Source: Sphingobacteriales bacterium JAD_PAG50586_3
GTDB taxonomy: Bacteria; Bacteroidota; Bacteroidia; CAMBQF01
NCBI GenBank assembly: GCA_023213195.1
Contig: CP096135.1
Coordinates: forward strand, 3,716,842 to 3,780,841
Direction of reading: 5' to 3'
DNA: 64,000 nt
How positions within the stretch are numbered: the stretch's first letter is position 1; every line of letters starts with the position of its first letter. This document shows positions 14,687 to 63,686 of this stretch, piece by piece. A model generated the notes under the pieces. It worked only from the letters and a program-made list of their open reading frames with translations. It did no database searches and was not told the DNA's origin. Position numbers and translations under genes: made by a program.

Positions 14687-16151
14687 ATGGCAAGTTCTAA
14701 ATTTATTGGCGAAGGCCTTACTTACGACGACGTTCTGCTCGTTCCCCGTTACTCTGAAGTTTTACCGCGCGAAGTTGATGTGTCTAGCTGGTTTAGCCGT
14801 GGCATTAAGCTTAATGTTCCTGTAGTTTCTGCCGCTATGGATACCGTTACCGAGAGTGGTTTGGCTATTGCCATTGCGCAGGAAGGTGGCATTGGTGTGT
14901 TGCACAAAAACATGTCTATCCAACGCCAGTACCGAGGAAGTAAAAAAGGTAAAACGCAGCGAAAGCGGAATGATTTTAGACCCCGTAACGTTAGACGAAA
15001 GCGCCATTGTTGCCGATGCCCTTGCCTTGATGAAAGAGAATAAAATTGGCGGCATACCGGTAATTAATGCCGACCGTAAACTGGTGGGCATTGTAACCAA
15101 CCGCGATTTGCGTTTTGAGAAGGTAATGAACCGCCCCATACGCGAGGTAATGACCAGCGAAGGGCTTATTACTGCTGATAAAATTGACCTTGCCAAGGCC
15201 GAAGATATTTTACAGGAACATAAAATTGAAAAGCTACCTGTTGTAAACGATAAGTTTGAATTGGTAGGCCTTATTACCTATAAAGACATTATTAAAACCC
15301 GCATACGCCCAAACGCTTGTAAAGACGATTTAGGACGCTTACGCGTTGCCGCCGCCGTTGGTGTTACTGCCGATATGCTGGAGCGCATTACCGCCCTTGA
15401 AAAAGCCGGTGTTGATGCCGTGATTATTGATACTGCCCACGGACACTCTAAAGGTGTTATTGATGCCGTAAAACGCACCAAAGCACAGTTCCCCAACCTG
15501 CAAGTTGTAGCAGGTAATATTGCTACTGCCGAAGCTGCTTTAGCATTGGTTGAAGCTGGTGCCGATGGTGTTAAAGTAGGTATAGGCCCGGGCTCAATTT
15601 GCACTACGCGTATTATTGCGGGTGTAGGTGTACCACAGCTTACTGCCGTATTTAACGTAGCCGAAGCTTTAAAAGGCACAGGCATCCCGCTTATTGCCGA
15701 TGGTGGTATTAAGTTTACTGGCGATATTGTTAAAGCCATTGCCGCAGGCGCTGCTTCTATCATGGCAGGCTCTGCGTTTGCAGGTGTTGACGAAAGTCCC
15801 GGCGATACTATTATTTACGAAGGACGTAAGTTTAAATCGTACCGTGGTATGGGCTCTATAGAGGCTATGCAGCAAGGCTCTAAAGACCGCTATTTTCAAG
15901 ATGCGGAAGATGATATTAAGAAGTTAGTACCAGAGGGTATTTCGGGCCGTGTGCCTTACAAAGGCTCTATAGCCGAAGTATTGTACCAAATGGTGGGCGG
16001 CTTACGCGCCGGTATGGGTTACTGCGGTGCTGCTAATGTTAAAGCCTTACAAGAAAACAGCCAGTTTGTGCGCATTACCAATGCAGGCCTTAAAGAGAGC
16101 CACCCGCATGGGGTATCTATCACCAGCCACGCTCCTAATTATGGGATGTAG
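14687..16151 (+). CDS. guaB: IMP dehydrogenase (one frame break)
   Basis: Oxidises IMP to XMP, the committed step to GMP. N-terminal [11 protein letters not shown], two CBS domains (about 95-205), the active-site loop GPGSICTTR with catalytic Cys near 303, the GGIKFTGD phosphate site and the flap region ([10 protein letters not shown]) are all present. The frame breaks at 14926-14931 (CCAGTA). If the site was CCAGG, the text reads [16 protein letters not shown], matching the family, and the protein is 487 residues, the usual length. The start at 14687 is supported by the promoter and by alignment to typical N-termini. It appears monocistronic, followed by the GIY-YIG insertion. Confidence 0.95.
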
Positions 16152-16162
16152 CCCACGCTAAA

Positions 16163-16185
16163 GTCATCCCTGCGAAAGCAGGGAT
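16163..16185. repeat. Left inverted repeat of the GIY-YIG unit
   Basis: 23 bp that read GTC followed by ATCCCTGC-GAAA-GCAGGGAT, itself a hairpin with an 8-bp stem and a GAAA loop. It is the exact reverse complement of 16545-16567 on the other side of the GIY-YIG gene. It starts 12 bases after the guaB stop. Confidence 0.9.
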
Positions 16186-16202
16186 CTCCATACCTTACCA
16201 AC

Positions 16203-16541
16203 ATGGGATATGTTTACATCATAGCTAACAAGCACCTAACAGCTCTTTACATTGGTGTTACCAACGATATTGAACGCCGTGTATGTGAACATAAAGCAGG
16301 TGTAGGCTCCTCTTTTACTTCTAAGTTCAAATGCAATGTTCTATTATTTCATGAACAGTATTTTTCAATTGGAGAAGCTATTGAAAGAGAAAAGCAAATG
16401 AAGAAATGGAAAAGGGATTGGAAAATTGAACTAATCAAACAGGGAAATCCAGAGATGATTGACCTAGCTGCTGATTGGTTTACAGATGATCAATTAAAAT
16501 CAGCAGTAGACGAATACAAAAGGCGTAAACTTGAACCGTAG
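16203..16541 (+). CDS. GIY-YIG endonuclease-domain protein
   Basis: 112 residues forming one GIY-YIG nuclease domain of the COG2827/YhbQ-like type. Visible: GYVYII (GIY strand), ALYIGVTNDIERRVCEHK (YIG strand plus catalytic-type Arg), and EAIEREKQMKKWKRDWKIELI with the metal-binding Glu in the IERE segment. Such small stand-alone nucleases usually nick DNA; the cellular role of this group is not settled. The gene is enclosed by perfect 23-bp inverted repeats starting 4 bases after its stop and ending 17 bases before its start. It sits between two housekeeping genes and is slightly more AT- and Lys-rich than they are. The context suggests a small mobile or domesticated repeat-nuclease unit. 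Confidence 0.9.
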   Translation: MGYVYIIANKHLTALYIGVTNDIERRVCEHKAGVGSSFTSKFKCNVLLFHEQYFSIGEAIEREKQMKKWKRDWKIELIKQGNPEMIDLAADWFTDDQLKSAVDEYKRRKLEP

Positions 16542-16544
16542 GAA

Positions 16545-16567
16545 ATCCCTGCTTTCGCAGGGATGAC
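16545..16567. repeat. Right inverted repeat of the GIY-YIG unit
   Basis: Exact 23-bp reverse complement of 16163-16185, again a self-complementary hairpin (ATCCCTGC-TTTC-GCAGGGAT plus GAC). The similarity continues inward for about four more bases with one mismatch. It ends 6 bases before the mqnE stop. Confidence 0.9.
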
Positions 16568-16573
16568 ATCTCG

Positions 16574-17752
16574 TTAGTTGGGGCTTACAACTACCTCTTC
16601 CCTACCCCAATCATAATCGGTATAATCCTTAACAACATTGTAAACAGTATCGCGCTCTATAGGTCGGCGACCAACCTGTTTAATCAGTTCGGTAAGCTGG
16701 CGGGTGGTTAACGATGGGCTTTGCTCTTCGGCACCGGCCATAGAATATATCTTAGTAGTATCGTCAATCGTTCCATCCATATCATCAACACCATAGGCTA
16801 GCGATAGTTGTGCTATTTGGCGACCTATCATGGGCCAATACGCTTTTACGTGGCCAAAGTTATCCATGTATATGCGGCCAATTGCGTAGTTGCGCAAATC
16901 CTCAATAATAGACGACTCTTTTATATGCGACATTTGGTTGCCCCCGTTGCGGAATTTTAGCGGAATAAAGGTATTAAAGCCACCTGTTTTGTCTTGAAGT
17001 TGGCGCAGGCGTTCCATGTGGTCTACACGGTGTGCAAAGGTTTCTATATGGCCGTATAGCATGGTAGCATTGCTTGGCATACCCAGTTTATGGGCTGTTT
17101 CATGCATGGCTAGCCATTCATCGGCAGTACACTTATCTTCAGCAATAATGGTGCGTATTTCGGGGTGGAATATCTCTGCACCACCGCCGGGTAAAGAATC
17201 CTGACCGTGTTCCTTTAATATGCGCAAACCCTCTTCGTAGCTAACCTTAGCTTTTTTGCACATATAGTGCAGCTCCACAGCGGTAAAGGCTTTAACGTGT
17301 ATATCGGGGCGAATTTCTTTAATCTTCTTAATCAGGTCGGCAAAGTATTGTAAGCCCATTTTTGGGTGAACGCCTCCAACAATATGTACTTCGGTAATCT
17401 TTTGCCCATCGTAGCTGCGTACCTTTTCCAGTATCTGCTCTTCACTCATTTCCCACCCTTCTTCCTTGTGTTTTAGCAGGCGGCTGTATGAGCAAAACTT
17501 GCAATCGTACACACAAATATTGGTAGGTTCTATGTGTATGTTGTGGTTAAAGAAAACCTTGTCGCCATGGCGCTTTTCGCGTATGTAGTTAGCCAGCATA
17601 CCTACAAAGTTCAGGTCTGCTTTTTCATAAAGCAAAATACCTTCTTCGGGGGTAATACGTTGCTCTGCTAATACTTTATCTGCTATTGCCTTTAGGGCAG
17701 CATCTACGTTAGATAAGGATACTAACGTGCGCACTTGGTCTGGACTTGTCAT
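16574..17752 (-). CDS. mqnE: Aminofutalosine synthase (radical SAM)
   Basis: 392 residues. Joins a chorismate-derived enolpyruvyl benzoate to SAM-derived adenosine, an early step of the futalosine pathway to menaquinone. The [4Fe-4S] motif is C80-x3-C84-x2-C87 (NICVYDCKFCSY). The surrounding text (FFNHNIHIEPTNIC, VHIVGGVHPKMGLQYF, PGGGAEIFHPEIR, TMLYGHIET) matches MqnE rather than MqnC: the HPEIR segment and the overall length favour MqnE. Transcribed divergently from aroB with 78 bases between the starts, which makes shared control possible; AroB feeds chorismate, the substrate source for this pathway. The frame is intact. Confidence 0.92.
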   Translation of the reverse strand: MTSPDQVRTLVSLSNVDAALKAIADKVLAEQRITPEEGILLYEKADLNFVGMLANYIREKRHGDKVFFNHNIHIEPTNICVYDCKFCSYSRLLKHKEEGWEMSEEQILEKVRSYDGQKITEVHIVGGVHPKMGLQYFADLIKKIKEIRPDIHVKAFTAVELHYMCKKAKVSYEEGLRILKEHGQDSLPGGGAEIFHPEIRTIIAEDKCTADEWLAMHETAHKLGMPSNATMLYGHIETFAHRVDHMERLRQLQDKTGGFNTFIPLKFRNGGNQMSHIKESSIIEDLRNYAIGRIYMDNFGHVKAYWPMIGRQIAQLSLAYGVDDMDGTIDDTTKIYSMAGAEEQSPSLTTRQLTELIKQVGRRPIERDTVYNVVKDYTDYDWGREEVVVSPN

Positions 17753-20879: not shown

Positions 20880-21815
20880 TTAGAAGTAACGAGGGGTTTT
20901 GATTTTCAATAAACCGCGGCCAAAGTCAAAGCCCAACATAAACTCGTGCGATGCGCCAACATAGTTGTAACGTACGCTTTGTAGTTTATAATCGTAAGCA
21001 TAACCTAAGCGGAAACGACGGTTAATTAAAAACTCTATCATACCCACAACAGCATCTTGCGTACGGTACGATGCGCCTACCCATACCTTGTCGTTAAACA
21101 GGAAATGCACGTTAAAATCGAACTGCACCGGAGATACGGTAGCTGTTTGATACTTCATTAAAAACGATGGGCGTATCTTTAAAAAGTCGTTGGCTTTAAT
21201 AATGTAACCAGCTTGTAAAAAGTAGTGGCGGCGCAAAAAGCTTGTTTTGGTAAAGTCTACGTTAAACTTAGTTTTTGGTACATAAGCCATTAATGTAGGG
21301 AATGATAAACCTGCATAAAACCTCTCAGTATTAAAAAACATACCAAAACCTATACGGGTAGCAAACGCACGGAATGGTTGCATGTTTGGGTCGCCACCAT
21401 TTTGTCCATCCCAATAAATTTCAGGCTCCTGTGCATTTAGAAAGGTACCACCGGCACGTATACCAAAGCTTAGGCGGGTTTTCTCGCTAAACTTAATTTT
21501 ATACGCGTAGTTGGCATAAATATCGGTGTTGTTGTTTACACCAATCCTATCGTTACAAATAGATAAACCCCAGCCCATTGTATTGTTGGCCATGGGCCCG
21601 TCTACAGATAGAACTGCCGTTTTAGGGGCACCGTCCCAGTTTGTCCACTGGTCGCGGTATAGCAGCGTACTCGAAATGTAGCTTTGAGTACCTGCATACG
21701 CCGGATTTAAAAATACCTGGTTAAACATGTATTGGCTAAACATAGCTTCCTGCTGGGCTTTTACCCCCGCAATTGCTGCTATGGCCAATGCTGCTGTTAG
21801 TATAACCTTTTTCAT
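20880..21815 (-). CDS. PorP/SprF family type IX secretion membrane protein
   Basis: 311 residues. A signal peptide ending GVKAQQ is followed by the family opening MFSQYMFNQVFLNPAYAGT and a run of amphipathic beta strands ending FDFGRGLLKIKTPRYF, as expected for an outer-membrane beta-barrel. PorP/SprF paralogues often sit directly beside a large type B T9SS substrate and are needed for its export and surface attachment; SprF for SprB is the named case. Here it lies 88 bases downstream of the giant adhesin and 39 bases upstream of the PorE-like gene. The assignment is firm; that the adhesin is its client is inference from position. Confidence 0.92.
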   Translation of the reverse strand: MKKVILTAALAIAAIAGVKAQQEAMFSQYMFNQVFLNPAYAGTQSYISSTLLYRDQWTNWDGAPKTAVLSVDGPMANNTMGWGLSICNDRIGVNNNTDIYANYAYKIKFSEKTRLSFGIRAGGTFLNAQEPEIYWDGQNGGDPNMQPFRAFATRIGFGMFFNTERFYAGLSFPTLMAYVPKTKFNVDFTKTSFLRRHYFLQAGYIIKANDFLKIRPSFLMKYQTATVSPVQFDFNVHFLFNDKVWVGASYRTQDAVVGMIEFLINRRFRLGYAYDYKLQSVRYNYVGASHEFMLGFDFGRGLLKIKTPRYF

Positions 21816-63589: not shown

Positions 63590-63655
63590 TGCCTGCCGGC
63601 AGGCAAGGCTGCAAAGTATAACGTTGCCCTTGCCTGCCGACGGCATTACTTTTTC
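63590..63655. repeat. Palindrome plus third head motif of the 207-bp repeat family
   Basis: TGCCTGCCGGCAGGCA (63590-63605) is a perfect 16-bp palindrome. CTGCCGACGGCATTAC within 63633-63655, followed by TTTTTC, is the same head motif that precedes both 207-bp repeats (48306 and 51234), here without the body. Confidence 0.6.
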
Positions 63656-63686
63656 TGAAACAAGTTCAGGATGACGGCCCGTTGAT

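Follow-up and report, generated by a model that had tools for sequence, protein, structure and literature searches.

The Cassette Between guaB and mqnE

The window (the whole stretch of 64,000 nucleotides that was analysed) contains a cassette of 405 bp, at positions 16163–16567, in which an inverted pair of GTC-tagged hairpins surrounds a gene for a compact GIY-YIG nuclease. The left hairpin element (16163–16185, plus strand) is a 23-nt repeat of the CGTC class of REPs, GTCATCCCTGCGAAAGCAGGGAT, with the layout GTC-ATCCCTGC-GAAA-GCAGGGAT and a CTCC tail on the side of the gene. The right element (16545–16567, minus strand) is the exact reverse complement of the left, with its tag likewise pointing outward. 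In both copies, the tag is followed by a hairpin with an 8-bp stem and a 4-nt loop, ATCCCTGC-GAAA-GCAGGGAT, at 16166–16185 and 16545–16564 (GAAA/TTTC loop), and the inverted repeat continues for another 4 nt towards the gene with one mismatch (CTCC/TTCC). Even when 3 mismatches are allowed, 0.00 copies of such a hairpin are expected by chance in the window. The sequence-only reading had described two 23-bp, exactly reverse-complementary elements, each a hairpin, around a GIY-YIG gene of 112 residues, and this description is confirmed by the sequence itself and by the Pfam match of the protein. Where the cassette ends on either side is inferred by analogy with Sphingobium and Sinorhizobium, in which the boundaries run from REP to REP.

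The junction between the flanking genes is almost wholly filled by the cassette, which begins 11 bases past the end of guaB (14687–16151, plus strand) and stops 6 bases short of the 3′ end of mqnE (16574–17752, minus strand). The two genes are convergent. The guaB reading frame is split by a frameshift near 14920–14945, while its orthologue at locus L053 reads through, and the frameshift may be either a sequencing error or a real mutation. A scan for intrinsic terminators at both cassette hairpins found none, there being no terminator-like T-run after them, and no matching Rfam family was found.

The Nuclease

The gene (16203–16541, plus strand) is supported by an open reading frame of 112 amino acids, a match to the Pfam GIY-YIG family at 1.6e-16, an intact set of GIY-YIG catalytic residues (Tyr, Tyr, Arg, His, Glu and Asn) and a confidently predicted fold (pLDDT 94.8). 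Among 48 enclosed proteins, the conservation of these residues is nearly complete (Y5 0.98, Y16 1.00, R26 0.98, H30 1.00, E63 1.00 and N82 1.00), and the motif REKQMKKWKRxWK is typical of the family. The enclosed nucleases consist of a single domain of about 97–112 amino acids. The closest solved structures are the UPF0213 protein BH0048 (1zg2), the GIY-YIG domain of UvrC (1yd6), I-TevI (1ln0) and Slx1, with TM-scores of about 0.5 and weak E-values. The cassette nuclease has the catalytic fold and residues in common with homing endonucleases of the I-TevI type and with UPF0213, the N-terminal domain of UvrC and Slx1. It differs from these in having no intron, intein or partner and in lying between hairpins of its own. 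Each active site of a GIY-YIG enzyme hydrolyses one strand, and the substrates are branched structures or specific sites. Such chemistry fits the cutting of a hairpin or cruciform but does not fit strand transfer alone.

Repeats in the Genome of the Cassette

With up to 3 mismatches allowed, the GTC-tagged hairpin occurs 57 times in the genome, a single contig of 4.16 Mb, compared with 0 for the reversed control. The exact 20-mer hairpin occurs in 6 copies. The right cassette copy is tagged TGTC and the left AGTC, and GTC is present in nearly all 57. In this genome, the tail of the hairpin is CTCC or CTCACC, that is CTC(A/C)C, while a CCA tail is common in other phyla. Most copies are singletons, and tag-outward pairs are limited to one pair without a gene and two cassettes; 26 of 30 copies examined fall outside open reading frames of at least 100 amino acids. 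The two cassettes contain the two close GIY-YIG paralogues of the genome, which are 63% identical and both lie within inverted hairpin copies with their GTC tags outward. Four of the 57 repeats lie no more than 100 bp from one or other of the two genes, against an expectation of 0.014. Two further, more distant GIY-YIG genes of the same genome are not enclosed by hairpins. The suggestion that the elements are REP-like was therefore borne out by the genome-wide search, in that the repeats are dispersed and both close paralogues are enclosed. It had also been proposed that the idea would fail if the palindrome occurred throughout the genome without any association with GIY-YIG genes and the gene were conserved at guaB in all relatives without repeats. 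Half of this objection holds at first sight, insofar as 53 of the 57 repeats have no such gene beside them; however, the same is true of REPs relative to RAYTs.

Other repeats were also observed. A second REP family (type GTCATCCCGAACTTGTTTCGGGAT) has 36 copies in the genome, including a degenerate member in the window (63652–63675, minus strand), and no cassette was found for this family. Two direct copies of CGTCTCGCCTTAGGCGAGACCGTGACAGG, a different hairpin within a tRNA-like fragment, flank a GIY-YIG gene at locus L024 (G000:C1:36895).

Enclosure Across Bacteria

A scan of one genome per bacterial or archaeal species returned 73 homologous loci, none of which was picked by its flanks. Their distribution is patchy and spans the Bacteroidota, Alpha-, Gamma- and Deltaproteobacteria, Chloroflexota, Planctomycetota, candidate phyla and others. 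At 35 of the 71 usable loci, an inverted repeat with a score of at least 14 spans the gene, compared with 2 of 479 equally spaced control windows from the same loci. When a sample of Bacteroidia and hits on plasmids were combined with the species scan, 132 loci were usable. By a strict test, 49 of these carry a GTC-tagged hairpin on both sides with the tags outward, as do 3 of 1,410 controls of matched spacing from the same loci (p about 7e-53). The probability is only a guide, since some of the 132 loci are closely related to each other, and the controls were not restricted to intergenic windows. A tagged hairpin on at least one side is found at 83 of the 132 loci and 64 of the 1,410 controls. 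The strict test found a hairpin on neither side at another 49 of the 132 loci. Some of these have imperfect or longer hairpins that it missed, and the others may be decayed or unrelated. None of 15 distant GIY-YIG genes from the same or related genomes is enclosed. Enclosure across phyla is thus far above the controls, and the proposal of a unit resembling REP and RAYT, with a GIY-YIG nuclease in the place of the RAYT, is supported.

The association is less evident at the level of whole genomes. Some repeat-rich genomes, such as G133 (26 copies) and G001 (9 copies), lack a flanked nuclease. When a single hairpin sequence is considered, its co-occurrence with the nuclease is weak (8/12 versus 77/235, p=0.03), because every lineage has its own hairpin. 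A viral origin was considered and appears unlikely, with 4 loci in 2.9 million viral contigs and 1 weak match among phage records.

Individual loci vary in their state. A GIY-YIG remnant with an internal stop (locus L213, G236:C35:21314–21439) has a GTC-tagged hairpin at 21521 and represents a decayed cassette in a repeat-bearing genome. In Sinorhizobium meliloti Ak57 (L161), the intact cassette is accompanied by what is left of another GIY-YIG gene, a 3′-end fragment at about 1680–1795 that lies between two hairpins. In Neisseria gonorrhoeae (L162), the GIY-YIG gene lies amid clustered hairpins of the dRS3 type.

Co-variation of Hairpin and Nuclease

The lineage-specific hairpins fall into three classes, represented by GTCATTCCTGCGNAGGCAGGAAT (8-bp stem and 4-nt loop, 8+4), GTCACTCCGGGCTTGACCCGGAGT and GTCATGCTGAACTTGTTTCAGCAT (8+5) and GTCATCCTCGGGCTTGACCCGAGGAT (9+5). 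When hairpin class is mapped onto the tree of nucleases, only 6 changes are needed, compared with 20.9 after shuffling, and none of 200 shuffles was as low. The tree was built from 73 nucleases with few alignment columns, and many of its forks are weak. The hairpin of a given cassette is dispersed in the genome that carries it, with 18 copies in G210 and 345 in G192, and is rare or missing in the rest of the genomes tested. A hairpin of the 8+5 class, type CTGAACTTGTTTCAG, is present in 28–102 copies in each of four genomes. The gene for the enzyme remains at low copy number, with 1–5 per genome versus tens to hundreds of repeats.

Presence and Absence at Junctions

The guaB–mqnE junction of a same-genus relative, G001, lacks the gene and has a single lone hairpin, GTCATTCCCGCGCAGGCGGGAAT. 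The expectation of an empty site in relatives was met to the extent that the gene is missing, but one repeat is still there. The exact breakpoint cannot be read at this junction, since outside the REP the sequence of G001 is not alignable base by base.

In Azospirillum lipoferum 4B, hairpin dimers and a GIY-YIG gene lie at the conserved junction of sufB and sufC, and the same junction has neither gene nor hairpins in A. ramasamyi (96.8% identical flanks), A. oryzae, Azospirillum B510 and A. thermophilum. Shinella PSBB067 possesses a cassette at the same sufB–sufC junction with a different hairpin. At the junction of fnrL and a response-regulator gene in Sphingobium, the cassette is present in seven plasmids and absent from four close ones. 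In TomTYG64 and TomTYG74, the gene-free site consists of one hairpin tagged at both ends (GTCACCCCGGGTCAAGCCCGGGGTGAC in TomTYG64). This fused hairpin combines the outer half of each cassette hairpin, and the flanking sequences agree as far as its edges. The gene-free site at gltA–lpxB in Sinorhizobium K101 is likewise a single fused hairpin. These sites indicate that the hairpins mark the ends of the element and that a site may, in its other state, consist of a fused hairpin. Such a hairpin can also arise by ordinary slippage deletion between the arms of the palindromes. The direction of change is clear only at the suf junction, because gene-free adjacency of sufB and sufC is the common state. 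Searches of plasmids for the Rhizobium CIAT894 and Novosphingobium pNL2 sites yielded no empty allele, and neither a target-site duplication nor a new insertion at the level of strains was seen.

Relationship to Known Repeat Systems

The CGTC REPs were described as repeats with a CGTC or TGTC tag, an 8- or 9-bp stem starting with A-T pairs, a loop of 4 or 5 nt and mostly a CCA tail (Di Nocera et al., 2013, PMC3733652). The superfamily includes dRS3 of Neisseria and RPE-4 and RPE-6 of Rickettsia, and members of its family 1 are mostly head-to-head dimers (PMC3733652). The repeats described here share the GTC tag, the AT-first stems and the 8+4, 8+5 and 9+5 stem-loop classes, which correspond to families 1, 2 and 3. 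The hairpin of the guaB–mqnE cassette agrees with the description of family 1 in its tag, an 8-bp stem whose first two pairs are A-T, a 4-nt loop and many dispersed, mainly intergenic copies. Its CTC(A/C)C tail differs from CCA but is not disqualifying, as the source assigns CCA only to most members. The catalogued repeats were reported to show no association with genes for transposases, and they 'apparently lack a dedicated transposase' (Di Nocera et al., 2013, PMC3733652). In contrast to that catalogue, which names no associated enzyme, the enclosed GIY-YIG gene is proposed here as the enzyme. Species on its list in which a GIY-YIG gene is enclosed by or adjacent to REPs include Novosphingobium aromaticivorans, Azospirillum lipoferum, Sinorhizobium meliloti and Neisseria. 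No link between GIY-YIG proteins and REPs was found in the literature, within a search limited to open-licence papers without preprints, and neither RepRanger (2025) nor the HuH survey (2018) mentions GIY-YIG.

The arrangement also resembles the REPtrons and REPINs of the REP/RAYT (TnpA-REP) system. In both cases, short tagged palindromes form inverted cognate pairs around a low-copy enzyme gene, many non-autonomous copies are dispersed through the genome, and enzyme and repeat co-vary. In contrast, the enzyme of the cassette is a GIY-YIG nuclease rather than a Y1 HuH transposase, and its tag is GTC rather than GTAG. The cassette resembles a REPtron in how it works but does not qualify as one, since both enzyme and tag are different.

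Interpretation and Alternative Explanations

Based on the current evidence, the cassette is best explained as an autonomous mobile repeat unit with two inverted REP ends of the CGTC class and a GIY-YIG nuclease of about 97–112 amino acids that recognises them, a reading to which a probability of about 0.7 is assigned and in which cleavage and the route of movement are inferred. The layout of the unit, the repeated finding of enclosed genes, the agreement between hairpin class and nuclease tree, the scattered repeats that match the cassette hairpins, and the REP-bounded presence and absence between relatives are matters of observation. A functional partnership between nuclease and hairpin is, from sequence comparison, strongly supported, and mobility of the unit is well supported, while the chemistry and route remain inference.

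In the mechanism envisaged, the nuclease would bind the GTC-tagged hairpin, whether this is extruded as a cruciform or presented by single-stranded DNA, and would cut beside the tag or stem. Host repair might then insert a copy of the hairpin, or of the entire cassette, at a broken REP or intergenic site, in a manner resembling homing; alternatively, the arms could be rejoined to leave one fused hairpin. Lone hairpins and hairpin dimers would be the non-autonomous offspring of the 405-bp unit, as REPs and REPINs are to RAYTs. This break-and-repair route is tentative, with a chance that falls a little short of even. It is judged likelier than true strand-transfer transposition, which is unlikely, because GIY-YIG nucleases are known to hydrolyse DNA and none is known to join it.

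The nuclease might instead be a domesticated enzyme of repeat control, which trims or deletes hairpins much as SbcCD acts on palindromes and is maintained among them without spreading anything. Fused hairpins at gene-free sites are expected of deletion products, and the low number of enzyme genes relative to repeats would also suit this role. It is improbable, without being negligible, given that gene and hairpins were inserted at sufB–sufC in two lineages although the gene-free order is common there, that the distribution across phyla is patchy and hairpin class goes along with the nuclease, and that pure control does not need enclosure by inverted copies. The suf sites also bear on a strict homing endonuclease, which would cut cassette-free alleles at a lone REP and have the gene alone copied in, the dispersed REPs being of other origin. 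The lone REP of G001 at guaB–mqnE and the single hairpins of the gene-free Sphingobium and Sinorhizobium sites are what such an enzyme would target. The gene-free Azospirillum suf sites have no REP, however, which suggests that the REPs came in with the gene, and a pre-existing target need not have a hairpin class that tracks the nuclease tree. This leaves strict homing extremely doubtful.

It is also conceivable that the REPs owe their mobility to a different enzyme, either a RAYT or an IS transposase, and that the GIY-YIG gene is only cargo caught between two of them. For REPs as a whole, RAYTs are regarded as the mobilising enzymes (PMC6006769), and the genome contains three Y1 (RAYT-like) transposase genes; no hairpin lies within about 1.5 kb of any of the three, however. 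Moreover, CGTC repeats were found to flank no tyrosine transposases, with links to other transposases only fortuitous (Di Nocera et al., 2013, PMC3733652), and a single gene family would not be expected as cargo in many phyla with matched hairpins. Hitch-hiking is accordingly regarded as very improbable. Finally, the association could be a coincidence, in which terminators or REPs that prefer intergenic sites lie beside an ordinary repair gene of the UPF0213/YhbQ type. The largely intergenic location of the repeats and the structural proximity to UPF0213 proteins agree with this. Against it, only 3 of the 1,410 matched-spacing controls at the same loci were enclosed (with the limitation on intergenic windows noted above), the hairpins have no terminator-like T-run, and the gene is missing from the junction in the same-genus relative and from the suf, fnrL and gltA junctions of relatives. 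Coincidence is hardly credible at all.

Implications

A second, distant GIY-YIG subfamily appears to be linked to tRNA genes. A tRNA lies within 200 bp in 9 of its 15 loci (L023 at G000:C1:3187869, L212, L215, L216, L217, L219, L221, L222 and L223), compared with 1 of 132 in the REP-type family. In 8 of these 9, an 18–40 bp copy of part of that tRNA is present nearby, mostly across the gene. This looks like homing into tRNA genes with restoration of the tRNA. The location of this subfamily, next to tRNA genes and partial copies of them, raises the possibility that being mobile and modular, with differing target modules, is a more general property of small GIY-YIG genes.

Repeats with the CGTC tag are common in the alphaproteobacteria, Neisseria and Rickettsia and, as seen here, the Bacteroidota. 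The question of the missing enzyme, left by the 2013 catalogue, now has a named, small and testable candidate in a nuclease that is bracketed by the REPs, varies with them and is present or absent with them. On balance, the compact GIY-YIG nuclease is probably the dedicated enzyme of the CGTC-REP superfamily across bacteria, and hence a second class of REP-dispersing enzyme, chemically unrelated to RAYT. If this is true, a GIY-YIG nuclease would be a driver of the spread of structured DNA repeats.
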